DNA of 64,000 bases from a virus: positions 1 to 64,000 of IMG/VR virus record IMGVR_UViG_3300032291_002681. The stretch is one strand, 5' to 3'. Below, one piece after another: positions 3,808-55,353 of this stretch; positions within the stretch are counted from its first letter, which is position 1, and the number at the start of each line of letters is the position of its first letter. A program made the translations under genes and the position numbers. The notes beneath the pieces were generated by a model. It did not search any database. It was not told the origin of the DNA and saw nothing but the letters and a program-made list of their open reading frames with translations.

Positions 3808-6800
3808 ATGGCAATTAGTAATCTATTAACAGGAAGGGTAAGAGTAGTTTCACCTAAAAATGTAACACAGGACAGGTATCAATTTATTGATTTATCACAA
3901 GTTGAACCAAATTTAGGTGTTCCAAATTTTTCGGCATCACTTTCAGGTTCTCCAGCTATTGTAGTTTCGGATGACCAGGGTAATAGAGGATTTGTAAGAA
4001 GTTTAGATTTAGATAGAGCAACTGGAGCATTTACTGGTTCATTTACTGGTTCATTTACTGGTTCTTATTATGGAGACGGTAGAGATTTATTTAATCTACC
4101 TGCCGCAAGATTTATATCAAGTGGTTCGGCAACTGCATCTTTTGTAGAAGGGAATTTATTAATTAATACGAACACTAGAGTTCAAGGTGACCTTTATGTC
4201 GATGATACAATTTATGCGGAAAGTATAATAGTATCTTATATATCATCATCGGTAATTTATTCTTCTGGTTCAAATATATTTGGAGATAATTATACTGATA
4301 GACAACAATTTACAGGATCTGTATTAGTTAGTTCATCTATTATTGTAAATGATATTACCGCATCACAATCTATCACTGGTTCATTTACCGGTTCTTTTTT
4401 TGGTGATGGTAGAGATATATTTAATTTACCACAAGCTACAAGATTAGTAACCGGTTCGGTAACCGCATCAGTAACACCTGAAGATGGATTTAAAGTAGTT
4501 TCAATTGTAAGTGGTTCTCAATTTACTGGTTCTCTTTTTGTAAGTGGGAATATTACTATACCATCTGGTAGTGGTTTTTTTAGTGGTAGTGGTGAAGGAT
4601 TATTTAACATACCACTTTCAGCACTTAATATAGATTCATTAGTAGCTAGTAGAATTGCAAGTGGTAGTGTTACTGCATCAGTTTCACCAACTGAAGGATT
4701 TAAAGTATTATCAGTCGCAAGTGGGTCTACTTTTACTGGTTCTCTTTTTGTAAGTGGAAATGTTGTAATTCCATCTGGTAGTGGATTCTTTAGTGGTAGT
4801 GGTGAAGGATTATTTAATATTCCATTATCGGCACTTAATATCGATTCATTAGAATCAACTTTAATATCAAGTGGTAGTATAACTGCGTCTGTATCTCCTG
4901 TATTTGGATTTAAAGTGCAATCACAAGAAAGTGGTTCTCAATTTAGTGGTTCCGTTAATATTAGTGGTAGTTTATTCGTATCACCATTTAGTGGCTCTTT
5001 ACAATTAGCATCTGGTTCAAATTATTATGGTGAGGGCCAATTCTTAAGAAACATACCTCGTTCAGCATTAACCGAAGACGCATTAATATCTACCGAAATA
5101 AAATCAGGTTCAATAACCGCATCAGTTTCACCTGTATTTGGATTTAAAGTAGAAACACCATTTACTGGTTCTCAATTTGGTTCTCAATTTACGGGAAGTA
5201 TTGATGTAAGTGGTAGTGTTAAAGCATTTGCATTTATAGGAGATGGTTCTCAATTAACAAATGTACAAGCAGCAGCTGCACCAAGAATAGAATCTGGTTC
5301 TGTAACTGCTTCGGTATCACCTAATTTTGGATTCCGTGTAGAATCGCAAATAAGTGGTTCTGAATTTACTGGTTCAATTGATGTGAGTGGAAGTATATTC
5401 ATACCATCCGGTAGTGGTGTATTTAGTGGTAGTGGTGCGGGTTTATTTGATATACCTCGTTCGGCACTTACTCCTGACGCATTATTATCAAACTTAATAG
5501 CAAGTGGTAGTGTTACCGCGTCTGTAACTCCTCAATTTGGATTCCGTGTGGAATCCAGAGTAAGTGGTTCAGAGTTTACAGGTTCAATTGATATTAGTGG
5601 AAGTGTATTTATACCAAGTGGTAGTGGTGTATTTAGTGGTAGTGGTGCGGGTTTATTTGATATACCTCGTTCAGCACTTACACCAGATGCACTTTTATCA
5701 AATTTAATAGCGAGTGGTTCAGTAACGGCATCTGTAACGCCTGATTTTGGATTTAGAATACAATCAATTGATAGTGGTTCTCAATTTACAGGTTCACTTT
5801 TTGTAAGTGGAGCTAGAGGTATTGAATTGGCATCGGGTTCATCTTATTCAGGTAGTGGTGCTAGATTGTTTAATATACCAGTAAATGCAATTGAAGATTT
5901 AGACCTCTCCAAAATTGGTAGTGGTTCGGTAACTGCATCAATAACTCCAAATAATGGATTTAGAGTAAATACATTTTCTACCTTTACCGGTAGTATGATT
6001 ATATCGGCATCTGCTACATATTTTGCAACCGAATCAATCAATCCAATATATAATGTAACTAATAATGGCAGTACATCGTATTCTTTTACCGGTGGAATTA
6101 TTGGTGATAATCCTACACTAACTTTAGTAAGAGGGGTAACTTATACATTTAATTTAAATGCAAGTGGGCATCCATTTTGGATAAAAACAATTCAATCCAC
6201 TGGTATTGTAAACGCATATAATACCGGTGTAACGAATAACGGTGATGATAATGGGGTAATAACATTTACACCACAAGTTGGTTCACCTAATACTCTATAT
6301 TATAATTGCCAACTTCATTTATCAATGGGTGGTATAATTAACATTATAGACGGGGTTTTACAAAAAACACCTGGAGTTGTTATTTCCGGAAGTTTAGATG
6401 TAAGTGAAGTTGTTAGAGCTAGAGAATTTACGGGTTCATTTTCAGCATCATTTATACAAGGTGATGGTGCTGGATTATTTAATATTCCTCGTTCTGCATT
6501 TACCGGAGATTCTTTTAGAATTGCTAGTGGTAGTATAACCGCATCAGTTTCACCTGTATTTGGATTTAAAGTAGAATCGGCTGAAGTTGGTTCTGAAATT
6601 TCTGGAAGTGTTAGAGTAAGTGGTTCGGTAATTGCATCAGCTGTAACCGCTGTATCAATGAGTGCACTTAATTTTAGTGGTTCATTTCAAGGAGATGGTA
6701 GTAGATTAACTAATATTGTTATTCCACCATTGGAGACTACACAAATAGCTAGTGGTTCGGTAACGGCATCAGCTGCACCTGATAAGGGATTTATAGTAAA

Positions 6801-9800
6801 ATCATCGGATTTTGGTTCTCAATTTACTGGTTCAGTTTTCATAAGTGGTAGTAGAGGCATTGAAATTGTATCTGGTTCATCTTACTCTGGTAGTGGTGCT
6901 AGATTATTTGATATACCGAGAACGGCGTTGGCACCTGATGCGTTAGATACCAATAGAATTCTTTCCGGTTCGGTAACGGCATCGGTAACTCCCCAATTTG
7001 GATTTCGAGTAGAATCTACCGAAAGAGGTTCTCAATTTAGTGGTTCGGTATTTTTAAGTGGTTCGGTATTTTTAAGAACAGGTTCGTTTAGTGGTAGTGG
7101 TAGAAATCTATTTGATATACCAGTTGCAGCTTTATCCGATTTAGATACATCAAAAATATTTAGTGGTTCGGTAACCGCATCGGTATCACCTAATTTTGGA
7201 TTTGTAGTAACATCTGTTGCGAGTGGTTCTATATTTAGTGGAAGTTTATTAGTAAGTGGAAGTAGTAGATTTAGAATGGGTGTATCTGCATCCGTATTTA
7301 GTGGTAGTGGAGCAGGATTGACAGATATTCCATTCTCAGCACTATCACAGGAATTATTTAGAATTGCAAGTGGGAGTGTGACTGCTTCAGCATTGCCTGA
7401 CAGGGGATTTGTTGTAGAATCCGTAGCAAGCGGTTCACAGATAACTGGTAGTGTTAAAATAACTGGAAGTTTAACAATAAATGCAACATCTGGAGCATTA
7501 ATACTTGGTTCATCATCTGCTTATTTTGGTGAAGGTACTTATTTAAGAAATATTCCTAGAAATGCTCTTAGTGAAGACGCATTAATATCAACTGAAATTA
7601 AAAGTGGTAGTGTAACGGCATCCGTTTCACCTAATTTTGGATTTGTTGTAAAATCGGCAGAAAGTGGTTCGCAATTTACTGGTAGTGTAAATATTAGTGG
7701 TAGTTTGCTTGTAAGAAGTGGTTCATTTTTTATTGGAGATGGTAGATTCCTTAACAATATTACATTAGCAAATTTAGCAATAGATTCTACAAAAATATTT
7801 AGTGGAAGTGCAACCGCATCAATATCACCATCGGATGGATTTAAAGTAAATACACATTCTAGATTTGATGGAAGTTTTATTGTATCTTCATCTGCAAGAA
7901 GTACACCTGATTATTTAATAGATAGAACTATTGCTGTAACAAATGATGGTAGTAATTCTTATATAATAGAAGTCGGTCTTATTAGTGGTTCAAACCCAAC
8001 TATAACATTAGTTAGGGGATTACAATACACTATTGATGTAAATGCACCTGGACACCCATTTTGGATTAAATATATAGAATCAACCGGTACATCTAATTCA
8101 TATAGTAGTAGTATTACAAATAATGGAACTGATAGTGGTACTATTGTATTCACTCCGCCATCCGGTTCGCCAGATACACTTTACTATAATTGTCAATTAC
8201 ATTCTTCAATGAAGGGTACAATTAATTTAATAAATGAATTAATTATTCCTGCAGAAATACGATTAATTGGAAATACTAAAATAGAAGGTAATCTTACTGC
8301 TTCGATGTATAGTGGTAGTGGTAGAGGTTTATTTGATATTCCTCGTTCTGCGATAACCGAAGATTCAGTTAGAATAGCAAGTGCTAGTGTGACCGCTTCG
8401 GTATCACCTGACTCTGGATTCTTAGTTCAATCGGTTGTTAGTGGTTCTACATTTAGTGGAAGTGTTGTTGTATCTGGAAGTATGTTCTTAAACTTTACTT
8501 CTGGTGCATTATTTATAGATTCATCATCTGGACTTTATTCTGATGGACAATTCTTAAGAAATATACCTCGTTCGGCTTTAACAGAAGATGCATTAATTAG
8601 TACTGAAATTAAATCTGGTTCCGTAACCGCATCCGTTTCTCCTGTATTCGGATTCAGAGTTGAAACTGGATTTACATCATCAATAAATGAAAATGGAGTT
8701 TATACAACTCAAATTGGTTCTAGATTTACTGGTAGTATTGATGTTAGTGGTAGTTTATTTATAAATGAAGTTAGTGGAGCAATATATCTTCAATCATCTT
8801 CAAATTATTATGGAGAAGGAAGATATTTAAGAAATATCCCCCGTTCAGCACTAACTGAAGATGCACTTATTAGTACCGAAATTAAATCGGGTTCAGTAAC
8901 AGCATCGGTAACACCTGATGAGGGTTTTAGAGTAATAACACCATTTACCGGTTCACAAATTGGTTCACAATTTACCGGTTCGGTTAATGTGAGTGGCTCA
9001 CTTATTGGGGATAATTTAACTGCTAGAGGATTTTTCTTTGGTGATGGTAGATTTATTACCAATGTACAAGCGGCTGCAGCTCCATTGATAGCAAGTGGTT
9101 CGGCAACTGCTTCGGTAGCAAGTGGAGAAACATTTGTAGTAAGAACTGAAAAAACAGGTTCTCAAATAGGTTCTGAATTTACTGGTTCAATATCAGTTAG
9201 TGGCTCAATATTAGGACAAGATATAACTTCAACTAGATTCTTCTTTGGAGATGGTAGATTTATTACAAATGTAGTTGCATCCGCAGCTCCATTTATAGCT
9301 AGTGGTTCGGCAACTGCATCGGTAGCAAACGGGTTTGATTTTAGAGTAATAACTGCGGCAACTGGTTCGGAAGTAGGTTCTGAATTTACTGGTAGTGTAG
9401 AGGTTAGTGGTTCATTAAAAGCAGATGATTTAACGGCAAGGGGATTCATTTTTGGTGATGGTAGATTTATCACTAATGTACAAGCATCCGCAGCTCCTTT
9501 AATAGCTAGTGGTTCTGCAACCGCATCGGTAGCAAGTGGAGATACTTTTAGAGTAATAACTGCCCCATCTTCTGGTTCGTTTAAATCACAATTTACATCA
9601 TCAGTAGCAATTAGTGGTTCTATTACTGCATCTTTATTTGTTGGTGATGGTGGTGGATTATTTAATATCCCACCTGATGCGATTGAAAATTTAGAATTAG
9701 CAAAGATTAACTCTGGTTCTGGTATTGCAATTATTGACCCAAATAAATTAGATGTAAATGTACCAATTACAGCATCTCGATTTGATGGAGATGGTAGTGG

Positions 9801-12800
9801 ATTATTTAATATTCCACCTGAAGCATTAGATGATTTGCAGATTGATAGAATTCAGTCTGGTTCATTTGAAGCAGTAATTTCTCCAAATAGAGGATTAGAA
9901 ATTGGAACTAGAACATTTGTGTCTGGTAACCTAAGTGTTAGTGGTGGATTGTTTGTAACTGGTGGAAACATTATAGTATCATCTGGTTCTTCATTCGTTG
10001 GAGATGGTAGTGGTATTACAAATATTAACATTGCTAATTTATCATTTGAAACATCACTATTACAATCAGGCTCAGCAATAGCTAGAATATCTCCAAATTT
10101 TGGATTTGTAGTAAATACATCATCTTTAATTGAGGGTAATTTAGTAGTAACAAACCAAATTACAGCAAGTAATTTAATATTTTCACCATTATTTACTGGT
10201 TCATTCTTAGGAACTTATAATTTCCAAGGAGTAGGACCAACTGCATCTGCGGAATATGATATTTTACGATATGATGAAAATAGAGGATATTTTATACCTC
10301 AACCTGAAACTTCATTAACTGAAACTGTATCATTTAATAATGTTAGTAATTTAACAATTGTACATAATTTGGGAATTAGATACCCAATGGTGCAAGTGTA
10401 CGCAACTGGTTCTGAAGACCAAATTTTACCTGGCACAATAAAATCAATTAATGATGACACTATTCAAATTGTATTTAGTGGATTGACTAGTGGACACGTT
10501 GTAATTGGTAGTGGTGGTTCATTGATTAATGGTACAATACCTGGTGATAGAGTATTTGGAAATGTATTATCTGCATCATACGCTATAACTGCAGAATTTG
10601 CAAAGACTGTAGCGGGATTTGATTCAGCATCATTGGCAAATTTATCTGCATCATTGAGTGATACTGCACAATATGTAAGAAATTCACAAACCGCATCAAT
10701 GACTGTTGGTAGGGCTGTAAGTTCTTCATACGCACTAACCGCATCTTATGTTGAAAACTTAACCGGATTAAATCTAACTGAATATGTAAGAAACGATAGA
10801 ACATCTTCAATGACTGTTTTATCTGCATCATTTGCAAGAACTGCATCTTACGCATTATTTGCACAAAATGCATCGAATGTAGATACCTCAAACTTTGTTC
10901 AGAATTCACAAACTGCATCAATGTTGGTTGGTACTGCTTCATTAGCATTTACCGCATCATACGCTCTTTACGCTTTAAATGCGGAAGGAGTAAATACGGC
11001 ATCATTCTTACAAGTAAACAAAGATTCTACGATAAACGCTAATTTAACTATTAGTGGTAGTTTGGGAGTAAGTGGTAGTTTAATATTACAAAACTTACCA
11101 TCTGGTTCATCTGAAGATGTTGTTATTTGGAATAGTATAACAAAACGATTAGAAAGAAGAAATATAGTAGCTGCTGTTGGTTCATCTGGTACAACTGGTA
11201 CCGCAGGAACTGCGGGTACATCGGGTTCTTCTGGTACTTCGGGAACTTCGGGTACTTCTGGAACATCCGGTTCATCCGGAACAAGTGGAAGTAGTGGTAC
11301 ATCTGGAGAAGATGGGACATCTGGTACATCTGGAAGTAGTGGAACATCCGGAAGTAGTGGCACATCAGGAACTAGTGGTACAAGTGGTACTTCTGGAACA
11401 TCCGGTTCATCCGGAACAAGTGGTTCAAGTGGTACTTCTGGTTCCAGTGGTAGTAGTGGAACATCTGGAACGAGTGGAACATCAGGAACTTCTGGTTCAA
11501 GTGGTACTTCTGGAACATCTGGAAGTGCTGGGACAAGTGGTACTTCTGGAACATCTGGAACTACTGGTTCAGAAGGAACTTCAGGAACATCTGGAAGTAG
11601 TGGAACATCCGGAAGTAGTGGAACATCCGGAAGTAGTGGTACATCCGGAACTTCTGGCACATCGGGTTCTTCTGGAAGCGGAGGAACATCTGGTACATCT
11701 GGTAGCGGTGGTTCTTCTGGAACATCGGGAAGTGGAGGTACATCTGGTACATCAGGTAGTAGTGGAACTTCTGGAACTTCTGGAACATCTGGAAGTAGTG
11801 GAAGTGGTGGAACATCGGGAACATCTGGAAGTGGTGGAACAAGCGGAACATCTGGAAGTGGTGGAACAAGCGGAACATCCGGAACTTCTGGAAGTAGTGG
11901 AAGTGGAGGAACTTCTGGAAGCGGAGGTTCATCGGGTTCATCTGGAAGTGGAGGAACATCTGGTACATCTGCAACTGCTGGTACGGGTGGAACATCTGGA
12001 AGTAGCGGAACATCTGGAAGTGGTGGAACATCAGGAACTTCTGGTACATCTGGTACATCTGGAACATCTGGTACATCGGGAAGTGATGGTGTAAGTGGAA
12101 CTTCTGGAACAAGCGGAACATCTGGCACATCAGGAACTTCTGGAACAAGCGGAACATCTGGAAGTACCGGTAGTAGTGGAACTTCTGGCACATCAGGAAC
12201 TTCTGGTACATCTGGTACATCTGGAACATCTGGAGAAGATGGGACATCTGGTACATCGGGAAGTAGTGGAACATCTGGTACGAGCGGAACAACTGGAAGT
12301 AGTGGTACATCTGGTACAAGTGGAAGTAGTGGTACTTCTGGTAGTAGTGGTTCATCTGGAACAAGCGGTTCATCTGGTACTACCGGTTCATCCGGAACTT
12401 CTGGAAGTAGCGGAACAAGTGGAACTTCTGGAACAGATGGTACATCAGGAACAAGCGGCTCATCAGGAACATCAGGAACTTCAGGAAGCACTGGTTCATC
12501 TGGTACTAGTGGAAGTAGTGGAACTTCTGGAACATCAGGAAGTGATGGAACTTCTGGAACAAGCGGTACTTCTGGTACAAGTGGAACATCAGGAAGTACC
12601 GGTTCAGATGGTACTTCTGGAAGTAGTGGAACATCGGGTACATCGGGTAGTGATGGAACTTCTGGTACATCTGGCTCAGCTGGAACATCAGGAAGTACCG
12701 GTTCATCTGGTACAACTGGCTCCGAAGGTACGAGTGGAACATCTGCAATAGATGGAACAAGTGGTACTTCTGGAACCGATGGTACGAGTGGTACATCTGG

Positions 12801-15150
12801 AACAAGTGGAACATCTGGAAGTACCGGTTCATCTGGTACAACCGGTTCTGAGGGTACGAGTGGTACTTCTGGAACGAATGGCACAAGTGGAACTTCTGGA
12901 ACGAATGGTACAAGTGGAACTTCTGGAACTTCTGGAAGTAGTGGAAGTACTGGTTCATCTGGAACATCTGGCATAAATGGCACAAGTGGAACATCTGGTA
13001 GCGATGGAACATCGGGAACATCTGGTTCATCCGGTTCTTCTGGAACTAGAGGAACATCTGGTTCAGATGGAACATCGGGTTCTTCTGGAACAAGCGGACT
13101 AGATGGTACATATTTTGGCTCATCTGGTACAAGTGGTAGCAGTGGTACATCCGGAACAAGTGGTAGTACGGGAACTGCGGGTACATCGGGTTCTTCTGGA
13201 ACAAGCGGATTAGATGGTACATATTTTGGAAGTAGTGGAACATCGGGAACAAGTGGTAGCACTGGAACTGCAGGTTCTTCTGGAACATCTGGAACATCGG
13301 GTACATCTGGAACTACGGGAACATCCGGAACATCTGGACTAGATGGTACATATTTTGGTAGTAGTGGAACATCCGGCACATCAGGAACATCTGGAACATC
13401 TGGTACATCTGGTACATCTGGTACAACTGGTTCTGATGGAACATCTGGAACATCTGGATTAGATGGTACATTCTTTGGTAGTAGTGGGACATCGGGAACA
13501 TCTGGTACATCTGGTTCGAATGGCACATCTGGTTCTACTGGAACCGATGGTACATCTGGAAGTAGTGGAACATCTGGATTAGATGGTACATTCTTTGGTT
13601 CATCTGGTACAAGTGGTGAAGCTGGTACATCTGGAACTTCTGGAGCAGGTACATCTGGAACAAGCGGAACATCTGGAAGTAGTGGAACAAGTGGAATTGA
13701 TGGAACATTCTTTGGTTCTTCTGGTACGAGTGGTGAAGCTGGAACATCTGGTACATCAGGTGCAGGAACTTCTGGAACAAGCGGAACATCGGGAAGTACC
13801 GGTAGTAGTGGAACATCTGGTTTAGATGGAACATTTTTTGGTTCATCTGGTACAAGCGGGTCATCCGGAACATCTGGAACTTCTGGAACATCTGGACAAA
13901 CCGGTACTAATGGAACTTCTGGTACTTCTGGTACAAGTGGATTAGATGGTACATATTTTGGTAGTAGTGGAACTTCAGGAACTTCTGGTACATCTGGTTC
14001 TACCGGAACTGATGGAACATCTGGAAGTAGTGGAACTAGTGGAGTTTCTGGAACATCTGGATTTGACGGTACATATTTTGGTAGTAGCGGAACTTCAGGA
14101 ACTTCAGGAACTTCTGGTACATCTGGTACATCAGGATTAGGTACAAATGGAACTTCTGGTTCAACAGGAACATCTGGATTAAATGGTACATTCTTTGGTA
14201 GTAGTGGAACATCTGGAACGAGTGGAACATCAGGAACTTCTGGTACATCTGGATTAGGTACAAACGGAACATCTGGAACAACCGGAACAAGTGGATTAAA
14301 TGGTACATTCTTTGGAAGTAGTGGAACATCTGGTACATCTGGAGCACAAGGTACTACTGGTGAGGCGGGTACTTCGGGTACTTCGGGTACAACTCCTCCA
14401 AACTTTACATCTGGTACCGCAGGAACGAGTGGACAGACTGGTACTTCGGGTACTTCAGGCACAACTCCTCCGAACTTTACATCTGGAACCGCAGGAACGA
14501 GTGGTCAAACCGGTACTTCTGGAACATCGGGTACAACTCCTCCGAACTTTACTTCTGGTACCGCAGGAACAAGTGGACAAACTGGTTCATCCGGAACATC
14601 GGGTACAACTCCTCCGAACTTTACCTCTGGAACATCAGGTACAAATGGATTTGCTTTAGCTGGAACTACTAACGATGGATTACTTACTTATTCAAACGCA
14701 CCAGTTGGCGCAGTAGTTGAAAGTAATTTAACATTTGATGGTTCTATATTAACGATAACCGGTACAACTACACAAACGGGTAACATAGGTGTTACAGGAG
14801 CAATATCGGCAACGCAAAATATAACAGCAACAACATTTAGAGAAACTTATTCTGATTTAACAACCGGTGGTAGTGTAACTTTAGATTTATCGACAGCAAA
14901 TAACTTTAGAAGACAATTTAATGGCACATCTACAATAACAATATCAAACCCACCTGCATCAAATGCATTTGGATTTACATTTACAATGGTTAATGCTGGT
15001 GGTTACGCTATAACTTGGCCTGCTAGTGTAGATTGGGTTAATGGAAGTGCTCCAATATTAACATCAATTGGTACAGATGTATTATCATTCTTTACATTCA
15101 ATGGTGGTACAACTTATTACGGATTTGTAGTTGGAAAAAATATGAGTTAA
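3808..15150 (+). CDS. Giant tail fibre with cupredoxin-like domains and Gly-Thr-Ser shaft
   Basis: 3780 residues, the largest gene of the window. Residues 1 to about 2100 are many imperfect units of 60-90 residues of the pattern SGSVTASVSP, FGF, SGSQFTGS, SGSGxxLFNIP, typical of repetitive phage fibres. Two inserted domains (about 750-860 and 1380-1490) carry a type 1 copper signature: His788 with Cys834-x2-His837-x2-Met840, and His1416 with Cys1462-x2-His1465-x2-Met1468. Residues 2458 to about 3614 are nearly uninterrupted Gly-x-y triplets (mostly GTS and GSS), with eleven GLDGTYFG-type interruptions and four TTPPNFTSGTAG units near the end. The C-terminal 165 residues are beta-rich and end in GGTTYYGFVVGKNMS, a common fibre tip type. 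The likely role is a long trimeric fibre for host contact. Copper binding is inferred from the motif only. Confidence 0.85.
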   Translation: MAISNLLTGRVRVVSPKNVTQDRYQFIDLSQVEPNLGVPNFSASLSGSPAIVVSDDQGNRGFVRSLDLDRATGAFTGSFTGSFTGSYYGDGRDLFNLPAARFISSGSATASFVEGNLLINTNTRVQGDLYVDDTIYAESIIVSYISSSVIYSSGSNIFGDNYTDRQQFTGSVLVSSSIIVNDITASQSITGSFTGSFFGDGRDIFNLPQATRLVTGSVTASVTPEDGFKVVSIVSGSQFTGSLFVSGNITIPSGSGFFSGSGEGLFNIPLSALNIDSLVASRIASGSVTASVSPTEGFKVLSVASGSTFTGSLFVSGNVVIPSGSGFFSGSGEGLFNIPLSALNIDSLESTLISSGSITASVSPVFGFKVQSQESGSQFSGSVNISGSLFVSPFSGSLQLASGSNYYGEGQFLRNIPRSALTEDALISTEIKSGSITASVSPVFGFKVETPFTGSQFGSQFTGSIDVSGSVKAFAFIGDGSQLTNVQAAAAPRIESGSVTASVSPNFGFRVESQISGSEFTGSIDVSGSIFIPSGSGVFSGSGAGLFDIPRSALTPDALLSNLIASGSVTASVTPQFGFRVESRVSGSEFTGSIDISGSVFIPSGSGVFSGSGAGLFDIPRSALTPDALLSNLIASGSVTASVTPDFGFRIQSIDSGSQFTGSLFVSGARGIELASGSSYSGSGARLFNIPVNAIEDLDLSKIGSGSVTASITPNNGFRVNTFSTFTGSMIISASATYFATESINPIYNVTNNGSTSYSFTGGIIGDNPTLTLVRGVTYTFNLNASGHPFWIKTIQSTGIVNAYNTGVTNNGDDNGVITFTPQVGSPNTLYYNCQLHLSMGGIINIIDGVLQKTPGVVISGSLDVSEVVRAREFTGSFSASFIQGDGAGLFNIPRSAFTGDSFRIASGSITASVSPVFGFKVESAEVGSEISGSVRVSGSVIASAVTAVSMSALNFSGSFQGDGSRLTNIVIPPLETTQIASGSVTASAAPDKGFIVKSSDFGSQFTGSVFISGSRGIEIVSGSSYSGSGARLFDIPRTALAPDALDTNRILSGSVTASVTPQFGFRVESTERGSQFSGSVFLSGSVFLRTGSFSGSGRNLFDIPVAALSDLDTSKIFSGSVTASVSPNFGFVVTSVASGSIFSGSLLVSGSSRFRMGVSASVFSGSGAGLTDIPFSALSQELFRIASGSVTASALPDRGFVVESVASGSQITGSVKITGSLTINATSGALILGSSSAYFGEGTYLRNIPRNALSEDALISTEIKSGSVTASVSPNFGFVVKSAESGSQFTGSVNISGSLLVRSGSFFIGDGRFLNNITLANLAIDSTKIFSGSATASISPSDGFKVNTHSRFDGSFIVSSSARSTPDYLIDRTIAVTNDGSNSYIIEVGLISGSNPTITLVRGLQYTIDVNAPGHPFWIKYIESTGTSNSYSSSITNNGTDSGTIVFTPPSGSPDTLYYNCQLHSSMKGTINLINELIIPAEIRLIGNTKIEGNLTASMYSGSGRGLFDIPRSAITEDSVRIASASVTASVSPDSGFLVQSVVSGSTFSGSVVVSGSMFLNFTSGALFIDSSSGLYSDGQFLRNIPRSALTEDALISTEIKSGSVTASVSPVFGFRVETGFTSSINENGVYTTQIGSRFTGSIDVSGSLFINEVSGAIYLQSSSNYYGEGRYLRNIPRSALTEDALISTEIKSGSVTASVTPDEGFRVITPFTGSQIGSQFTGSVNVSGSLIGDNLTARGFFFGDGRFITNVQAAAAPLIASGSATASVASGETFVVRTEKTGSQIGSEFTGSISVSGSILGQDITSTRFFFGDGRFITNVVASAAPFIASGSATASVANGFDFRVITAATGSEVGSEFTGSVEVSGSLKADDLTARGFIFGDGRFITNVQASAAPLIASGSATASVASGDTFRVITAPSSGSFKSQFTSSVAISGSITASLFVGDGGGLFNIPPDAIENLELAKINSGSGIAIIDPNKLDVNVPITASRFDGDGSGLFNIPPEALDDLQIDRIQSGSFEAVISPNRGLEIGTRTFVSGNLSVSGGLFVTGGNIIVSSGSSFVGDGSGITNINIANLSFETSLLQSGSAIARISPNFGFVVNTSSLIEGNLVVTNQITASNLIFSPLFTGSFLGTYNFQGVGPTASAEYDILRYDENRGYFIPQPETSLTETVSFNNVSNLTIVHNLGIRYPMVQVYATGSEDQILPGTIKSINDDTIQIVFSGLTSGHVVIGSGGSLINGTIPGDRVFGNVLSASYAITAEFAKTVAGFDSASLANLSASLSDTAQYVRNSQTASMTVGRAVSSSYALTASYVENLTGLNLTEYVRNDRTSSMTVLSASFARTASYALFAQNASNVDTSNFVQNSQTASMLVGTASLAFTASYALYALNAEGVNTASFLQVNKDSTINANLTISGSLGVSGSLILQNLPSGSSEDVVIWNSITKRLERRNIVAAVGSSGTTGTAGTAGTSGSSGTSGTSGTSGTSGSSGTSGSSGTSGEDGTSGTSGSSGTSGSSGTSGTSGTSGTSGTSGSSGTSGSSGTSGSSGSSGTSGTSGTSGTSGSSGTSGTSGSAGTSGTSGTSGTTGSEGTSGTSGSSGTSGSSGTSGSSGTSGTSGTSGSSGSGGTSGTSGSGGSSGTSGSGGTSGTSGSSGTSGTSGTSGSSGSGGTSGTSGSGGTSGTSGSGGTSGTSGTSGSSGSGGTSGSGGSSGSSGSGGTSGTSATAGTGGTSGSSGTSGSGGTSGTSGTSGTSGTSGTSGSDGVSGTSGTSGTSGTSGTSGTSGTSGSTGSSGTSGTSGTSGTSGTSGTSGEDGTSGTSGSSGTSGTSGTTGSSGTSGTSGSSGTSGSSGSSGTSGSSGTTGSSGTSGSSGTSGTSGTDGTSGTSGSSGTSGTSGSTGSSGTSGSSGTSGTSGSDGTSGTSGTSGTSGTSGSTGSDGTSGSSGTSGTSGSDGTSGTSGSAGTSGSTGSSGTTGSEGTSGTSAIDGTSGTSGTDGTSGTSGTSGTSGSTGSSGTTGSEGTSGTSGTNGTSGTSGTNGTSGTSGTSGSSGSTGSSGTSGINGTSGTSGSDGTSGTSGSSGSSGTRGTSGSDGTSGSSGTSGLDGTYFGSSGTSGSSGTSGTSGSTGTAGTSGSSGTSGLDGTYFGSSGTSGTSGSTGTAGSSGTSGTSGTSGTTGTSGTSGLDGTYFGSSGTSGTSGTSGTSGTSGTSGTTGSDGTSGTSGLDGTFFGSSGTSGTSGTSGSNGTSGSTGTDGTSGSSGTSGLDGTFFGSSGTSGEAGTSGTSGAGTSGTSGTSGSSGTSGIDGTFFGSSGTSGEAGTSGTSGAGTSGTSGTSGSTGSSGTSGLDGTFFGSSGTSGSSGTSGTSGTSGQTGTNGTSGTSGTSGLDGTYFGSSGTSGTSGTSGSTGTDGTSGSSGTSGVSGTSGFDGTYFGSSGTSGTSGTSGTSGTSGLGTNGTSGSTGTSGLNGTFFGSSGTSGTSGTSGTSGTSGLGTNGTSGTTGTSGLNGTFFGSSGTSGTSGAQGTTGEAGTSGTSGTTPPNFTSGTAGTSGQTGTSGTSGTTPPNFTSGTAGTSGQTGTSGTSGTTPPNFTSGTAGTSGQTGSSGTSGTTPPNFTSGTSGTNGFALAGTTNDGLLTYSNAPVGAVVESNLTFDGSILTITGTTTQTGNIGVTGAISATQNITATTFRETYSDLTTGGSVTLDLSTANNFRRQFNGTSTITISNPPASNAFGFTFTMVNAGGYAITWPASVDWVNGSAPILTSIGTDVLSFFTFNGGTTYYGFVVGKNMS
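6040..6355 (+). other. Cupredoxin-like domain 1 (coding segment)
   Basis: Encodes a segment with NPTLTLVRGVTYTFNLN, then GHPFWIK (His788), then YYNCQLHLSMGG (Cys834, His837, Met840). The Cys-x2-His-x2-Met spacing is that of amicyanin, and the order His, Cys, His, Met is that of type 1 copper proteins. Found inside the giant fibre. Confidence 0.7.
7920..8240 (+). other. Cupredoxin-like domain 2 (coding segment)
   Basis: A second copy of the fibre-embedded domain, with NPTITLVRGLQYTIDVN, GHPFWIK (His1416) and YYNCQLHSSMKG (Cys1462, His1465, Met1468). The His to Cys distance is 46 residues, the same as in copy 1, and all four putative ligands are kept. Confidence 0.7.
11179..14649 (+). repeat. 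Gly-Thr-Ser triplet repeat tract, fibre 1
   Basis: About 3.5 kb of 9-nt units encoding Gly-Thr-Ser or Gly-Ser-Ser, roughly 1157 residues. Synonymous codons are mixed (GGA/GGT with ACA/ACT/ACG/ACC and TCT/TCA/TCC/TCG/AGT/AGC), so the DNA is repetitive but rarely identical over long stretches. The tract lacks stops on the opposite strand, which creates long false antisense frames. Confidence 0.95.
14389..14640 (+). repeat. 72-bp tandem repeat, TTPPNFTSG units
   Basis: Four copies of a 24-residue unit beginning ACAACTCCTCC at 14389, 14461, 14533 and 14605, with an exact 72-nt period. This is the end of the Gly-Thr-Ser shaft, just before the globular C-terminus of the fibre. Confidence 0.9.
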
Positions 15151-17198: not shown

Positions 17199-20100
17199 AT
17201 GGAATATTTAGGAGGTAACCCTAATGGTTTAAATCAACTAAGTTCAAGCTTAGTTGCGTTATTTGTGAGTGGAAGTAGAATAGCCAACTTCACATCGGAA
17301 TCGGTGAATGTAGTGGGTAATTTTACTGCCTCTGGTATCCAAACTAATTTAATAGTTGGACAGACAAATTCTCCAATATCAATAAGAGGTAATGCCGAAA
17401 TATCTGGTTCATTAGCAGTATCATCATCAATTACGGCATCTTTATTTAGAGGTGATGGTAGTGGGTTGTTTAACTTATCAGCTGGAGCTTTAGGAGACCT
17501 AAATCAAATTAAATCAGGCTCGGCAACTGCAACAATTTCACCAAATAGAGGATTAATAATAAATACTGGTGTTACAATAGATAGATTTTTAATAGTAACT
17601 GGTAGTGGTATTTTTAAAGGAGATGTAACTGTAGCTGGAAAAATAACATCAACTGAATTACATACAACTTTTATTTCATCATCGATAATCTACGCAAGTG
17701 GAAGTAACAAATTTGGTGATGCATCAAATGATAAACAAGAAATAACTGGTAGTTTATCAGTTAGTGGCTCAATGTTTGTAACTGGGGATACAATACCAAC
17801 TGATAATACAACAAACGAAGTATTAGTTCTTAACACAACAACAGGAAGAATTAGTAGAAGATTTGCAGCGGCAACTTCAGGAACTTCAGGAACATCAGGA
17901 ACTTCTGGAACATCGGGAACATCTGGTACATCTGGAACTCGTGGTACAAGTGGAACATCTGGTACATCAGGAACTTCTGGTACATCTGGAACAAGCGGAA
18001 GTGGTGGAACATCTGGTACATCTGGTACATCCGGTACATCAGGAACATCAGGAACATCAGGAACCTCCGGCACATCAGGAACTTCTGGAACTTCTGGAAC
18101 TTCTGGTACAAGTGGAACTAGAGGAACATCAGGAACTTCTGGAACTTCTGGTACAAGTGGAACTTCTGGAACATCGGGTAGTAGCGGAACATCTGGCACA
18201 TCAGGAACATCTGGAACATCAGGACAAAGTGGAACATCTGGTTCATCCGGTACGAGTGGTACAAGTGGTACTTCTGGAACATCCGGTCAAACCGGTACTA
18301 GTGGTACATCGGGAACTTCTGGTACATCTGGTACCTCTGGTAGCAGTGGAACATCTGGTAGTAGTGGTACGAGTGGTGTAAGTGGGAGTAGTGGTACGAG
18401 TGGTGTAAGTGGAAGTAGTGGTACGAGTGGTATAAGCGGCACATCGGGAACTTCTGGTACAAGTGGGTTGAGTGGAACTAATGGTACATCGGGTACAAGT
18501 GGAATAAGTGGAAGTAATGGTACTTCTGGAACGAGTGGTACATCAGGAACTTCTGGCACATCTGGATTAACTGGAGCTGGAGGTGGTAGTGGTACTGCTG
18601 GTAGTGGTGGTACATCAGGAACTTCTGGAACAAGTGGAACAAGTGGTACATCTGGAAGTAGTGGGACAAGTGGTGTGAGTGGAAGTGGAGGAACTGCAGG
18701 AACTTCTGGAACATCGGGAACAAGAGGAACTTCAGGAACTTCTGGAATTAGTGGTTCTTCTGGAACATCGGGTACATCCGGTACATCAGGTACAAGTGGA
18801 GCTAGTGGAAGTGCGGGTTCATCTGGAACAAGCGGAACTTCTGGAACTTCTGGAACAAGAGGAACTTCTGGAACATCGGGAACATCAGGAGCACAAGGTT
18901 CATCGGGCTCAGCTGGTACATCTGGAACATCCGGTACATCCGGAATTAGTGGAACTTCAGGTACTTCAGGTACTTCAGGTACATCAGGTACTTCTGGAAC
19001 ACGTGGTACATCTGGTACGAGTGGAATAAATGGCACATCGGGAACTTCTGGTACAAGTGGTGTGAGTGGTAGTAGTGGTACAAGTGGAACATCCGGTACA
19101 AGTGGAACTTCTGGTACAAGTGGTACTTCTGGTACATCGGGTACCTCAGGTACTTCTGGAACAAGTGGTTCTTCTGGAACAAGCGGTACTTCTGGAACAA
19201 GCGGTACTTCTGGTACATCTGGAGTTAGTGGTTCATCTGGAACAAGCGGTACTTCTGGAACAAGCGGCACATCAGGAACTTCTGGAACAAGCGGTAGTAG
19301 TGGAACATCTGGTAGTAGTGGAACATCTGGAGTTAGTGGTTCTTCTGGTACATCAGGAACTTCTGGTACATCAGGAACTTCTGGTACATCTGGTACATCG
19401 GGAACTTCTGGGACAAGGGGTACTTCTGGAACAAGCGGCACATCAGGAACTTCTGGAACAAGCGGTAGTAGTGGAACATCTGGAACTTCTGGTAGTAGTG
19501 GAACTAGAGGAACTTCTGGAACATCAGGAACTTCTGGAACATCAGGAACTTCTGGAACAAGCGGAAGTAGTGGTTCATCTGGATTATTATCATTAACTGG
19601 TACAACTGATAATGGTGTAATCACATTAAACGGAACTGCACCAAATGCAACCGTTGAAGCAAATTTAAGATTCGATGGTAGTACATTGACAGTAACTGGA
19701 GATGCTACAATTAGTGGTAACCTTACTGTAAGTGGTACAACAACAACGATTAATACAGAAACAATCCTATTAGCGGATAATATTATAACTCTTAACTCAA
19801 ACTTTACAACTGGAGCACCAACTGAAAATGCTGGTATAGAAGTTAGGAGAGGTTCATCATCAAATGTATCATTCTATTGGGATGAAAGTACTGATAGATG
19901 GACAGCAGATAATACTTTATCAGTAGCTGGTAACGTAGTTCTTAGTGGTACAATAGATACTGGAATTGGAGCAACTGAAGTTTATTTGATGAATCAGAAT
20001 GTTCGTACATCTGATAACGTTTCATTTAATAGAATAACATCAACAGTAGCAACTGGTACATCTCCATTAGTAGTTTCATCAACTACATTAGTATCAAGCC

Positions 20101-23100
20101 TCAATTCAGATTTATTGGATGGACAAGAAGGCACTTACTATGACCAAAGACAATATACAAGAGCAGATAACTATTTAGGTGGATATTATGTAAGTGGTGG
20201 TAGTGAAAAACCAAACAACTCTATATTTGGAGCTGGTAAATTAAAGGTAGCAATGCTTGCCGGTTCTAATCTTGGATTTGGTGGAAGTTGGAACGATGTT
20301 TTATGGATGTCAACTTATAATGGTGGTGATGTAAAACAAAGCTGGGCAATCGTTGGAGATAAATACTCTGATAATGTTTATATAGCTAGACAAGCATACG
20401 ATTCTGCAACTTGGGGTACTGGTTATAAATTATGGCATACTGGAAACGATGGAGCTGGTACTGGATTAGATGCGGATTTATGGGATGGTTATCAATTTTC
20501 AGACTATCTAAATCAAGCAGTTCGTACAACCGATTCTCCAACATTTGCTTCAATAAATACTGGACCTGGATTTACGGAAGTTCATCTAATGAATCAAAAT
20601 ATCCGTACATCTGATAGTGTATCATTTACAGGATTAAATATTACAGGTGGTGGCGTAGCTCAATTCTATACATCAGCTGGTAGTTTACGAGGATATATTC
20701 AAGCAACCGATACTGATGATAACCATTTAATTATAGCAACTTCAGGTGGTGAAGATATTGTATTCAGAGATGGTGGTTTAGCGGGAGACCGTAATATGGT
20801 TATTAGAGGAAATGCTACTGTGGAAGCATACGGTGATTTTAGAGCACCAATATTCTATGATTCTGCAAATACTGCATATCAATTAGACCTTAATGATTAT
20901 TCAAGATTCAATAGATTAGTATTAGACCAATCCCGAATCAATACCAGCAGATATCCAGTAGGACATTACACACCTGGTGAAACTGTATTTGAATTTGATA
21001 CTGCTTGGACAAATGACCAATTGCAAGCTTACTTTAACAATGGTAATGTAACTTGGGTAAATGATTCAACTTCACCTGGAGGATATGCAATTCAAATAGT
21101 TGGTAATGTGAATGTTGGTGGAGAATATGGTAGTGGATTTCCATATATTCCGGTTGACCAGGATGATATATTCTACATGGAATGTTGGATTAGGAGTACA
21201 GCTGGTTCAAATGGACACTATATGGGTTCTATTGATTATAATAGTGGATTTAGTTCATTAGGTGGTAATCCTGGTTCGTTTGGGTATTGGACAATGAGTA
21301 ATACTTTTCCAGGAGCTTCTTGGACAAAGGTAAGCGGATATATTAGTGGATTTGGAAACTCGGTAGGTCAATTTAGACCAGGAACTAAATTTTGGACTCC
21401 ACAAGCATTATTTAATTATACTGGTGGTGGAACTTCTTATATTAGTGGTTGGAAAGTAATCAAAGTATCCTATTCAGGAAATAGAACATTTAGAGGTTCA
21501 ATAACTGCAAACATTTATTACGGTACTAATACTAATTATTATGTAGACCCGGATGGAACATCTCTAATGGGTGGTTTAACATTGGAAAGTAATGTTGCAA
21601 CTGGTAGAGCATCTTATGGTTCATCAACGGCAAACCTTGTTTTATTGGCAAGTAGTACATACGGTAGAGCAACTATTGATTTTAGAAGTGGTGTAAACTA
21701 TCCATCGGATGGTGCACAAATTTATTATGAAACTGCAACAAATGGTGTAAGTGGTGAAACTTCTAGATTAGTTATCAGAACTGAAAACGATGCGGATGAT
21801 ACAATCCTTATTAGAGGTGGTTTTGTGGAGGTAAACAGCACTACGGTAGATGGTGGAAGTACAAACCCTGGATTTAGAGTATTATACAATGGTAACGCTA
21901 GAATGTACACTTATAGTGATAATACAACGGAATTTGGTTCATTTAGAGCACCAATATTCTATGATTCTAATGATACCGGATATAGATTTCATGGAGATGG
22001 TTTATCTGTTTTAAACGAATTAACTACGTTTGGTTCGATTGATATGAGAAACAACTATAATACGGGTCAAAATTTAAAACTCAATTTAAATGATGCATCG
22101 GCGTATGGTTTAGTTGATTTCCAACAAAATGGTTCACATAAAGGATTCTTTGGGTTAGGTGGTTCATCTCAGTCATTTGGTTCTTATGCAGCTTATGCAG
22201 CCGATGGATTTAGTTGGAATCACGATGGAAGTGGTAGAACAATTATATCATCAAGAACTGCTAGAAGAATCGATTTAAATACCGGTACAGAAGGTAATTC
22301 CAATTTCACAACATTAAGAATGACAAACCAGGATGTTTTTATAACTCCTGATTCCAATACGGGTAATTTCCGTTCACCACTTTTTTATATTCAAAACGAT
22401 ACAACTTACTTATGGAATAGTGATAGAATAGTAGTAAATCAAGTAACATTCCCTTATAGAGAGTGGGATTTTGGTTGGAACGCTCATGGAAATGGAAGTG
22501 GTACACAACCATTATCATTTAGAATGTGGGATAACTATACCCAACCTGGAGCACCATCTTCTTATGGTACGTTGATAGAATATTATGGATTAGTAGGACA
22601 CCAACATGACCAAATGTATTTTAATCAGGGTGAAATAAGACATAGATATGCTTGGTATGGTACTACTGCATGGCAAAGTGGTTGGAGAATTCTTTTACAT
22701 ACTGGAAACTATTCATCTTACGCAATTCCTGTTTCTGGCGGTATAAATATGACCGGTTCTTATGGATTGAATGACCAGAGATTATATTTGAGAACTAATG
22801 GAGATACTAATCACTACATTTGGAATGCAGATGATGATTGGGAAGAATTGGTATTTTATACAGGTACTGGATTTAGAGTAAGAAGTAGTACTGGACAAGT
22901 TCCTGCAACGTTTACAAATGCTGGTATAAACGCATCAAACGTAACGATTGGTGGAGCACAGGTTTGGTACAATAGTGGTAGTTGGTTAGGTGACTTGGCA
23001 TCTTATGGATTTACTAGAGCTTGGGGACTACAAATGAGTGGTGGTGCCGAATTCGTAGTTTTATATAGAGGTGGGCAAGGATATACATTAGTCGATGGTT

Positions 23101-25319
23101 CTTATTACGCTTACGAAGCGGGTGGATTCTATTCATCAAACAACTCAGCAGGAAATACGTTATTAGGATTTAATGCAGATAGTACTTCTTCTGTTAGATT
23201 TAATTCGGCAGTTAGAATTGGTGTTAATAATAACCTTTATTTAGATTACAACTACGGACAATCCGTTGTAGGTGTTTACACATCTACTAGATATCAGGGT
23301 GTATTCTCAATGGGTGATTCATATAAATTACCCATTGATGGTACTAGTGGCGGTAGCTTATATGGTTTAGCTTGGTCACATCCAAACGCTGGAGGACAAG
23401 CATCATTAGGTTTAAATGACCACGGATTGTTGGTAATGAACTATGGTACTACATTTGCAGGAATTTCTTCTAGAATTTGGGCAAGAGACCAAATGAACGC
23501 ACCAATTTACTATGATAGAAATACTGCATTTTATGTGGATGGTGATTCAAACTCAAGATTAAATCACGGAAGATTTGTTGGTTCATCTGGATATTATTCA
23601 TTATTATTAGGTCCTGACACATTAGCAACAAACGGCTCAACCTCAATATATCCCGATGGTGATAGATATGGGTTAGTATTGAACGCACCGTATTATCCAC
23701 ATTTGTATATAAACTCATACGCTGATAATGGTAACACGACACATGGTGGGGTTTTATCATTTATCGGTAATCTTACTTCTGGTGGTTATCGTAAATTCGT
23801 AATGGGTATTGCAAACCGAAATCCAAATGAATTGAGTTTTGGATGGTTTGATAATAACTATAACCCACATTATGGAGTAGGTATTAACTGGTCATACCCT
23901 GCATCCGTTTGGTATGATACCGGACATAACTGGTATGCTAGAGGTTCAATGAGAGCACCAATATTCTATGACCAAGATAATACTGGATACTATGTAAACC
24001 CTAATGGATATAGTGAGTTCGGCACATCAGGGCACGTAATGACAATTACTAAACTTGGAACCGGGCCTAATAGTAGAGCACTGCAAGTAGCAAACAATCA
24101 GGGTGATAACTCTTGGGGTATTGTATCTGAATTTAGAGTAAATGGTGGACCTGGTGGTGATAGACCATCGATTATGTTCTCCAGTGGATTTGATAATAAT
24201 ACTTGGTCTTGTGGATTTGGTTATGCGGATTCTGGATTATTTAGAATTAACTATGACCACGGACATAGAAACCAAAGTTGGGGTACAACTTCGTTTTATA
24301 TTGATAGAGGTGGTAACTCTTACTCAAATGGTAGTTCTAGAGCACCAATATTCTATGACCAAAATGATACGTCTTGGTACGCTGACCCTAATAGTAACTC
24401 AAACTTACAATTTATTGAGTGTAGGAGATATGGTTTCCGTTATCCTGGTGGTGATTCTGGTGTAGGTGCGGAAGCATATAACTTATTCCAAGAAGCTGGT
24501 GGATGGGGTTATCCTTATCCGGATTTAAGAATTGCATATCATACTGGTATTAAATTAGGAGCAAATGCATCGTATGAAGGAACTCGTATATATGATGATT
24601 ACCCGATGGGTACTTTGAGATACCAATTTAATGGTGGAGCTGGATATCAATATCAATATACTTGGACTCAACTTACTGGTCATCATGGTATATATTCTGG
24701 AATAAATGGTGCACACTGGTATCCAAACAACTCAACTTATGGAGCTTGGAGGGCAGATGGTACTAGAAATGGATATGGTGGTATATTAATTGATGTAGGA
24801 AACACACCAGTTCTTATGTTTGATGGCGGTGGTAATGGTGGTATATATTATCAGTCTGGTAGATGGATGTTCTATCACTATTTCCCTTACAACTGCGTGG
24901 GTGTAAACACTTCATCAACATCTCCTTCTTATGGTATGTATGTTAGTAGAGGTATCTACGCTACTGAAAACATTGTAGCATATTCCGATAGACGTGCAAA
25001 AGAAAATATTATAACAATTGATTCTGCATTAGATAAACTACTTCAAATGAGAGGTGTTTACTATAATAGAATTGATGATGAAACTAAAAAGAGACAAATC
25101 GGAGTAATTGCACAGGAAGTTAATGAAATTATTCCTGAAGCTGTAACGTATTGTGATGTTAATGATGAATATGGAGTTGCGTATGGCAACTTAGCAGGTT
25201 TATTTATTGAATCTATTAAAGACCAACAATTGATTATTGATAAGCAAGCTGAAGAAATAAGTTTATTAAAAGAAGAATTACAAAAAATTAAAGATTTTAT
25301 ATTTAATAATAAAGGATAA
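17199..25319 (+). CDS. Giant tail fibre with Gly-Thr-Ser shaft and S74 chaperone
   Basis: 2706 residues. Residues 1-227 contain TGS/SGS fibre repeats. Residues 228-795 are a Gly-Thr-Ser triplet shaft. The long C-terminal part has repeats such as LDADLWDGYQFSDYL, RTSDNVSF, and many copies of RAPIFYDSxDTxYYxDP, a common pattern of phage long fibres. Residues 2596-2706 form a Peptidase_S74 intramolecular chaperone: Ser2596-Asp-Arg-Arg-Ala-Lys2601, then IGVIAQEVNEIIPEAV and a terminal coiled coil. In this family the chaperone trimerises the fibre and then cuts itself off at the serine. The chosen ATG at 17199 is preceded by an out-of-frame ATG at 17195. It is the likely receptor-contacting fibre. 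Confidence 0.9.
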   Translation: MEYLGGNPNGLNQLSSSLVALFVSGSRIANFTSESVNVVGNFTASGIQTNLIVGQTNSPISIRGNAEISGSLAVSSSITASLFRGDGSGLFNLSAGALGDLNQIKSGSATATISPNRGLIINTGVTIDRFLIVTGSGIFKGDVTVAGKITSTELHTTFISSSIIYASGSNKFGDASNDKQEITGSLSVSGSMFVTGDTIPTDNTTNEVLVLNTTTGRISRRFAAATSGTSGTSGTSGTSGTSGTSGTRGTSGTSGTSGTSGTSGTSGSGGTSGTSGTSGTSGTSGTSGTSGTSGTSGTSGTSGTSGTRGTSGTSGTSGTSGTSGTSGSSGTSGTSGTSGTSGQSGTSGSSGTSGTSGTSGTSGQTGTSGTSGTSGTSGTSGSSGTSGSSGTSGVSGSSGTSGVSGSSGTSGISGTSGTSGTSGLSGTNGTSGTSGISGSNGTSGTSGTSGTSGTSGLTGAGGGSGTAGSGGTSGTSGTSGTSGTSGSSGTSGVSGSGGTAGTSGTSGTRGTSGTSGISGSSGTSGTSGTSGTSGASGSAGSSGTSGTSGTSGTRGTSGTSGTSGAQGSSGSAGTSGTSGTSGISGTSGTSGTSGTSGTSGTRGTSGTSGINGTSGTSGTSGVSGSSGTSGTSGTSGTSGTSGTSGTSGTSGTSGTSGSSGTSGTSGTSGTSGTSGVSGSSGTSGTSGTSGTSGTSGTSGSSGTSGSSGTSGVSGSSGTSGTSGTSGTSGTSGTSGTSGTRGTSGTSGTSGTSGTSGSSGTSGTSGSSGTRGTSGTSGTSGTSGTSGTSGSSGSSGLLSLTGTTDNGVITLNGTAPNATVEANLRFDGSTLTVTGDATISGNLTVSGTTTTINTETILLADNIITLNSNFTTGAPTENAGIEVRRGSSSNVSFYWDESTDRWTADNTLSVAGNVVLSGTIDTGIGATEVYLMNQNVRTSDNVSFNRITSTVATGTSPLVVSSTTLVSSLNSDLLDGQEGTYYDQRQYTRADNYLGGYYVSGGSEKPNNSIFGAGKLKVAMLAGSNLGFGGSWNDVLWMSTYNGGDVKQSWAIVGDKYSDNVYIARQAYDSATWGTGYKLWHTGNDGAGTGLDADLWDGYQFSDYLNQAVRTTDSPTFASINTGPGFTEVHLMNQNIRTSDSVSFTGLNITGGGVAQFYTSAGSLRGYIQATDTDDNHLIIATSGGEDIVFRDGGLAGDRNMVIRGNATVEAYGDFRAPIFYDSANTAYQLDLNDYSRFNRLVLDQSRINTSRYPVGHYTPGETVFEFDTAWTNDQLQAYFNNGNVTWVNDSTSPGGYAIQIVGNVNVGGEYGSGFPYIPVDQDDIFYMECWIRSTAGSNGHYMGSIDYNSGFSSLGGNPGSFGYWTMSNTFPGASWTKVSGYISGFGNSVGQFRPGTKFWTPQALFNYTGGGTSYISGWKVIKVSYSGNRTFRGSITANIYYGTNTNYYVDPDGTSLMGGLTLESNVATGRASYGSSTANLVLLASSTYGRATIDFRSGVNYPSDGAQIYYETATNGVSGETSRLVIRTENDADDTILIRGGFVEVNSTTVDGGSTNPGFRVLYNGNARMYTYSDNTTEFGSFRAPIFYDSNDTGYRFHGDGLSVLNELTTFGSIDMRNNYNTGQNLKLNLNDASAYGLVDFQQNGSHKGFFGLGGSSQSFGSYAAYAADGFSWNHDGSGRTIISSRTARRIDLNTGTEGNSNFTTLRMTNQDVFITPDSNTGNFRSPLFYIQNDTTYLWNSDRIVVNQVTFPYREWDFGWNAHGNGSGTQPLSFRMWDNYTQPGAPSSYGTLIEYYGLVGHQHDQMYFNQGEIRHRYAWYGTTAWQSGWRILLHTGNYSSYAIPVSGGINMTGSYGLNDQRLYLRTNGDTNHYIWNADDDWEELVFYTGTGFRVRSSTGQVPATFTNAGINASNVTIGGAQVWYNSGSWLGDLASYGFTRAWGLQMSGGAEFVVLYRGGQGYTLVDGSYYAYEAGGFYSSNNSAGNTLLGFNADSTSSVRFNSAVRIGVNNNLYLDYNYGQSVVGVYTSTRYQGVFSMGDSYKLPIDGTSGGSLYGLAWSHPNAGGQASLGLNDHGLLVMNYGTTFAGISSRIWARDQMNAPIYYDRNTAFYVDGDSNSRLNHGRFVGSSGYYSLLLGPDTLATNGSTSIYPDGDRYGLVLNAPYYPHLYINSYADNGNTTHGGVLSFIGNLTSGGYRKFVMGIANRNPNELSFGWFDNNYNPHYGVGINWSYPASVWYDTGHNWYARGSMRAPIFYDQDNTGYYVNPNGYSEFGTSGHVMTITKLGTGPNSRALQVANNQGDNSWGIVSEFRVNGGPGGDRPSIMFSSGFDNNTWSCGFGYADSGLFRINYDHGHRNQSWGTTSFYIDRGGNSYSNGSSRAPIFYDQNDTSWYADPNSNSNLQFIECRRYGFRYPGGDSGVGAEAYNLFQEAGGWGYPYPDLRIAYHTGIKLGANASYEGTRIYDDYPMGTLRYQFNGGAGYQYQYTWTQLTGHHGIYSGINGAHWYPNNSTYGAWRADGTRNGYGGILIDVGNTPVLMFDGGGNGGIYYQSGRWMFYHYFPYNCVGVNTSSTSPSYGMYVSRGIYATENIVAYSDRRAKENIITIDSALDKLLQMRGVYYNRIDDETKKRQIGVIAQEVNEIIPEAVTYCDVNDEYGVAYGNLAGLFIESIKDQQLIIDKQAEEISLLKEELQKIKDFIFNNKG
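17880..19583 (+). repeat. Gly-Thr-Ser triplet repeat tract, fibre 2
   Basis: About 568 residues of Gly-x-y triplets, mostly GTS, encoded by mixed synonymous codons. It is purer than the tract in fibre 1 and lacks the GLDGTYFG interruptions. Confidence 0.95.
24984..25316 (+). other. Peptidase_S74 intramolecular chaperone domain (coding segment)
   Basis: Begins at the Ser-Asp-Arg-Arg-Ala-Lys motif (Ser2596, Lys2601) and ends with the heptad-like helix of the last 35 residues. The expected self-cleavage is just before Ser2596. Confidence 0.85.
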
Positions 25320-55344: not shown

Positions 55345-55353
55345 AAATAATTT

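Follow-up and report, generated by a model that had tools for sequence, protein, structure and literature searches.

The first 64,000 bases of the 91,070-base IMG/VR virus record IMGVR_UViG_3300032291_002681, hereafter referred to as the window, encode a giant tail-fibre protein which carries two inserted domains, each with a putative type 1 copper site. The corresponding open reading frame (ORF; 3808–15150, plus strand) comprises 3780 amino acids and was assigned as a tail fibre by its matches to Pfam Collagen (3.1e-110) and to a tail fibre in PHROGs. It consists, in this order, of a shaft of degenerate repeats, a collagen-like Gly-Thr-Ser region at about residues 2458–3608, to which the Pfam match belongs, and, towards the C-terminus, a region with matches to PHROGs families of tail-fibre and virion proteins. 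Inserted in the shaft are two domains, each about 120 residues long: domain 1 (5992–6351, plus strand; residues 729–848) and domain 2 (7873–8241, plus strand; residues 1356–1478). Both domains match the PHROGs family phrog_677, domain 1 at 4.1e-23 and domain 2 at 1.4e-20 (span 7885–8253), and the predicted structures of both match cupredoxins. No copies besides these two were found in the whole record at E-values up to 0.01.

An original prediction, made from the letters of the window, had proposed that both domains possess His, Cys, His and Met in cupredoxin order with equal His-to-Cys spacing, and that they are located about 630 residues apart. This was confirmed: each domain contains the arrangement His-x45-Cys-x2-His-x2-Met, the spacing between His and Cys is 46 in both, and the two cysteines are separated by 628 residues. 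In domain 1, the first copper-ligand position is His788 (6169–6171, plus strand), which aligns to the His column of cupredoxins, and the ligand loop Cys834-x2-His837-x2-Met840 (6307–6327, plus strand; codons at 6307–6309, 6316–6318 and 6325–6327, respectively) similarly aligns to the cupredoxin ligand columns. The equivalent positions of domain 2 were identified by the sequence motif and correspond to His1416 (8053–8055, plus strand) and to the loop Cys1462-x2-His1465-x2-Met1468 (8191–8211, plus strand; codons at 8191–8193, 8200–8202 and 8209–8211). The fibre harbors only two cysteines within its 3780 residues, one in each motif, and four of its seven histidines are located at ligand positions. 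The exactly spaced motif was counted twice in the ORF, and none of 20,000 shuffles of the ORF residues contained it, which, together with the conservation in relatives described below, rules out that it arose by chance. As the domains are 58% identical, they represent homologous copies, and the second motif is thus not independent of the first. The evidential weight of the motif lies in its conservation in other proteins and not in the second copy within the window.

The structures of both domains were predicted by AlphaFold2, using a 76-row alignment of domains from the window, from IMG/VR and from metagenome-assembled genomes (MAGs) as input. The mean predicted local distance difference test (pLDDT) values were 91.9 for domain 1 and 93.3 for domain 2, with predicted template modelling (pTM) scores of 0.83 and 0.84. 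The predicted domains consist of 8 and 9 strands, and the pLDDT of the core block was mostly 93–98. At E-values up to 1e-3, Foldseek yielded 35 matches in the PDB for domain 1 and nine for domain 2. By title, all 50 matches listed for domain 1 were cupredoxin-fold copper proteins, including rusticyanin, AcoP, nitrite reductase, laccases, plastocyanin and amicyanin. For domain 2 this applied to 44 of the 50 matches listed, the remaining six being four respiratory-oxidase complexes and two entries whose titles name no protein. VIA identified 2dv6_A as the best match for both domains (Z 10.9 over 92 residues at 2.4 Å for domain 1; Z 10.0 over 95 residues at 2.5 Å for domain 2). The structure prediction that had been suggested as a check therefore agreed with the proposal, and, judging from the models, it is nearly certain that both domains have the cupredoxin fold, although fold likeness alone says nothing on function. 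A generic Ig-like sandwich is not favoured, as the PDB matches listed are cupredoxins.

To determine the conservation of the ligand positions, a domain set was assembled from three IMG/VR scans, from GTDB and genome loci, and from four phage records. Of 170 unique hits to the domain, six failed to cover the two ligand regions in full and were dropped, leaving 164 that were counted; the loci of the window itself (L001 and L002 in our numbering of loci) were excluded. The set of His, Cys, His and Met was complete in 152 of the 164 unique domains, a number which is inflated because two of the three IMG/VR scans used peptide patterns that contained ligands. The third IMG/VR scan was ligand-blind, its pattern being the stretch between the ligands, and, taking the best 80 of its 223 relatives, 48 of 49 unique seed domains were intact. 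In addition, 22 named phages were hand-picked for variety, and not by motif, from the tblastn matches listed. All of their 23 alignable domains were intact (22 of 22 phages), at identities down to about 30%, and these included gp9 of cyanomyoviruses, the podoviruses P-GSP1 and P-SCSP2 and the actinophage DSL-LC01. A 24th domain, a partial second copy in S-RIM2 (E 0.0013), also possesses the motif as read by eye. Among bacterial relatives, the motif was intact in all 11 distinct loci with both ligand regions in view. In the cellular loci L085/L252 and L090/L251 the frame is broken ahead of the Cys loop, and for L090/L251 an apparently intact loop lies in a separate piece. The ligand Cys accounted for 143 of the 253 cysteines in 100 non-overlapping frames (150,110 amino acids; each domain taken once and the loci of the third IMG/VR scan included), while the domains made up 12% of the length. 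At the ligand site, the codons TGC and TGT were used 74 and 78 times, respectively.

The loss of ligands was strongly patterned. All 12 incomplete domains lack the Cys, 11 of them also the second His, six the first His and five the Met, and another ligand was missing in none of the 152 copies bearing the Cys; Fisher tests on ligand loss ignore the relatedness of the domains. By computation, constraint was shown to act on the four putative ligand residues as a set. The earlier suggestion that ligand conservation reflects selection is supported by the 152 of 164 unique domains and the 23 of 23 named-phage domains that are intact and by this patterned loss, which fits selection on a metal site. 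Homologues without the ligands, which had been named beforehand as a finding that would speak against the proposal, do exist (12 of 164), but most homologues keep them. The ligand-less copies in fibres at L074 (1195–1560), L063 (3001–3366), L064 (1102–1467) and L230 (residue 442 onwards) represent natural controls, in which the Cys is gone together with one or more of the other ligands and the rest of the domain is kept.

In a tree built without the ligand columns, in which 67 of the 159 inner branches were unsupported, 10 changes are needed to explain the 12 lost copies. The end branches, again with the ligand columns left out, had a median length of 0.56 for lost and 0.13 for intact copies (Mann-Whitney p 1.6e-5). 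This is as expected if the site had held the sequence, with the thinner sampling around the lost copies as a confounder. Most loci had been fetched via an intact copy, and the co-occurrence of lost and intact copies was hence not used. The closest relatives of the window's copies are copies of other phages (73% identity to one in L004 and 84% to one in L067) and not each other.

The sequence relationship to cellular cupredoxins was addressed by hhalign, in which a profile of the 76 rows was aligned to 33 PF00127 proteins of cellular origin, taken from the phylum to which a Flavobacteriales MAG belongs. The alignment reached a probability of 90.2 (E 1.5e-6, score 40.3), and all four residues of the motif (both His, Cys and Met) fell on the PF00127 ligand columns. 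The reversed profile scored 9.4, and the best of 100 column shuffles 21.3. Matches to family models were mostly weak. The At5g54830-like domain model PF25489 matched domain 1 with 14.4 bits, which is below the curated cut-off of 27, and was matched by 45 of the 76 members at E-values up to 0.5 (best 6.1e-7). Within NCBIfam, weak matches were obtained for amicyanin (TIGR02657; four members, best 0.0013), rusticyanin (two members, 0.0013), copper nitrite reductase (two members) and plastocyanin (one member), along with unrelated models; domain 1 itself matched no NCBIfam model, TIGR02657 included. A single-domain sequence search of the PDB gave one unrelated match (E 0.6), and a profile search of the PDB listed auracyanin B first (E 0.12) and copper nitrite reductase third (0.64), with unrelated proteins among them and none significant.

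The domain appears to be widespread among phages. Matches were obtained in 289 phage records for domain 1, the majority from marine Synechococcus and Prochlorococcus phages, and in 246 for domain 2, GenBank and RefSeq copies both being counted, and 283 and 242 of these, respectively, are named Synechococcus, Prochlorococcus or cyanophage. At least 546 and at least 589 relatives were found in two IMG/VR scans, and structure matches among predicted viral proteins included tail-fibre, gp9 and giant-virus 'beta-sandwich' proteins. In cells the domain looks rarer than in phages: it was present at E-values up to 1e-5 in seven of 198 genomes of one phylum, which, judging by the Flavobacteriales title of locus L088, is Bacteroidota, and further cellular copies occur in Nannocystaceae, Saprospiraceae and Flavobacteriales MAGs. 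One bacterial relative carries a secretion-sorting tail.

An intact cupredoxin domain of this kind also forms the end of gp9, the connector between baseplate and fibre, in many marine cyanomyoviruses. The gp9 of S-RIM2 (L295, 616–1848) starts with the T4 gp9/10 N-terminal domain (PF07880, 1.3e-10) and has the cupredoxin domain at its end. The same position at the end was observed for gp9 genes of named cyanophages among L297–L310, the annotations seen for which do not name the domain. The window ORF is not a gp9, as PF07880 is not among its Pfam matches. In the Actinomycetia phage DSL-LC01 (L294, 2128–3498), a YHYH domain (PF14240) is joined to an intact cupredoxin domain, and this gene adjoins collagen-like genes and a tryptophan halogenase.

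His, Cys, His and Met constitute the ligand set of type 1 copper sites. We consider it likely that the two domains belong to a decoration module on the fibres and baseplates of phages that binds type 1 copper at a complete His-Cys-His-Met site, and, based on the ligand residues, the putative sites probably bind copper. Apart from the pattern-dependent scans mentioned above, several results weigh against this conclusion. The intact share drops when the domains are clustered, to 36 of 47 clusters at 60% identity, 15 of 23 at 50% and 11 of 13 at 40%, because the ligand-less copies are diverse. When the four ligand columns were masked, the hhalign probability fell to 8.7 and the score to 22.1, which is near the best shuffle, indicating that it is mainly the ligands which connect the sequences to PF00127; the fold match is evidence separate from that link. 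The probability decreased to 66.3 against the six small PF00127 proteins only, and to 34.0 against the 27 azurin-like ones, with the second His out of register. Among the Pfam matches of the window domains there is no cupredoxin model, neither PF00127 (Copper-bind) nor PF13473 (Cupredoxin_1), and among the 76 members these models were matched weakly by four (best 0.03) and two (best 0.0083), respectively. A phylogenetic test for concerted loss was not significant, as it comprised three independent pairs on well-supported branches, which are too few. Finally, some fibres carry a ligand-less copy, so that a metal is probably not required for the fold to serve.

According to the leading alternative, the domain is a purely structural or adhesive beta-sandwich of cupredoxin descent that holds no copper and whose residues are kept for loop packing or by slow decay. 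The 12 unique domains without the site are still recognised as the domain, the full site is absent from eight of the 23 clusters at 50% identity, and beta-sandwich decorations are generally known to be frequent on fibre and baseplate proteins. We nevertheless regard this explanation as unlikely, as all 23 alignable named-phage domains keep the four ligands down to about 30% identity, no copy retains the Cys with another ligand lost, and the site-less copies have longer end branches, though sparser sampling could contribute to the latter.

That the virion site holds another metal, such as zinc or iron, or copper as a passive contaminant, appears improbable, as the residues form the copper type 1 set and align to copper proteins, even though cupredoxin sites are able to hold zinc, as in 4hcg, a Cupredoxin_1 entry with bound zinc that appeared in the structure matches listed. 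In published work, iron has been proposed for tail fibres with HxH motifs, such as T4 gp37 and that of the alterophage R22Y (PMC11705849). The window fibre shares with these a proposed metal site in a phage tail fibre but differs in its motif, and as no His-x-His occurs in its 3780 residues, it is not an HxH iron fibre. Very improbable is a redox-active or signalling copper, which exchanges electrons at the host surface or serves as a lure for a copper-uptake receptor of the host, comparable to an iron Trojan horse: electron transfer is inherent to type 1 sites and many cyanophages have the module in their fibre and gp9 proteins, but no partner, receptor or phenotype is known to us, and type 1 sites are rigid with no apparent trigger.

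For a copper-binding decoration module, the following course may be envisaged. Phage fibres are made in the cytoplasm, and, as this is reducing and copper-poor, copper would be taken up outside the cell after lysis. Type 1 sites hold copper tightly and rigidly, so that a locked, metal-stabilised interaction surface would be the plainest role: the copper may lock the loops of the domain and thereby make or stabilise a surface touching the host or a neighbouring protein, and would not be there for catalysis. More tentatively, the module may be a decoration domain that lies on the surface of the shaft and, in the case of marine cyanomyoviruses, of the gp9 end. The phage A-1(L) is described to have six long fibres per virion, and the excerpted parts of that study mention copper solely for the microscope grid (PMC10966104). 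Should the window fibre, like the long A-1(L) fibres, be trimeric and present six times per virion, each particle would have up to 36 sites. A role of working blue-copper domains on fibres and gp9 of cyanophages and their relatives, with tens per virion, in the infection itself, by sensing of redox state or copper supply at the host surface, by exploitation of host copper uptake or by electron transfer, is doubtful; if it existed, natural waters would contain, in phage particles, a hidden reservoir of tightly held copper.

The window belongs to a contractile-tailed phage, with a sheath gene at 26332 and a tube gene at 28700, and the sheath and helicase point to Microcystis phage Mel-JY01 and Flavobacterium phage immuto as its closest cultured relatives. 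In a second giant fibre ORF (17199–25319; 2706 amino acids), collagen repeats occur together with an endosialidase chaperone domain (Peptidase_S74) at the C-terminus. Antisense to collagen-like repeats, an open frame of 1164 amino acids is present (10968–14462, minus strand), which is probably a by-product of the repeat sequence. Two adjoining ORFs (30599–33304 and 33307–36012) encode exactly 901 amino acids each and have no Pfam match at 1e-4; a duplication was ruled out, as there is no similarity between them. An asparagine-synthase/glutamine-amidotransferase-like protein is encoded at 57455–58912, adjoining ribonucleotide reductase genes at 54331–57135.

The cupredoxin fold and the type 1 site are already known as such. 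Rusticyanin (2cal; VIA Z 10.3), auracyanin and the N-terminal cupredoxin domain of Hyphomicrobium nitrite reductase share fold and ligand type with the window domains; these are, however, electron carriers or enzyme domains of cells, whereas the window domains are inserted in a virion fibre, and identities are about 18–26% in the alignments listed. The Cys-x2-His-x2-Met spacing is that of the amicyanin-type loop. The title of the Foldseek match 2vmj names the loop CTPHPFM, which we take to be that of amicyanin, and TIGR02657 is the NCBIfam cupredoxin model matched by most members (4 of 76). The domains are homologous to the C-terminal domain of phrog_677, the baseplate wedge tail-fibre connector (gp9) of cyanophages, and all four ligands are present in the gp9 proteins looked at. 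Unlike the gp9 of S-RIM2, the window ORF lacks a PF07880 match, and its two copies lie within a long fibre. By title, no description of the domain in virion fibres or gp9 was found in the open-access literature, absence from which is weak evidence.

That virion proteins should contain a complete type 1 copper site is unexpected, and such sites look common here. Tail proteins of hundreds of sequenced cyanobacterial viruses have the module, which hints that bound copper may be present on many phage particles. Provided that the sites do bind copper, existing isolates would allow tests of how much metal cyanophage particles contain, how sensitive they are to copper and what part gp9 and the fibre shaft play in attachment. 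The idea of metal-bearing phage tails would then widen from iron to copper.

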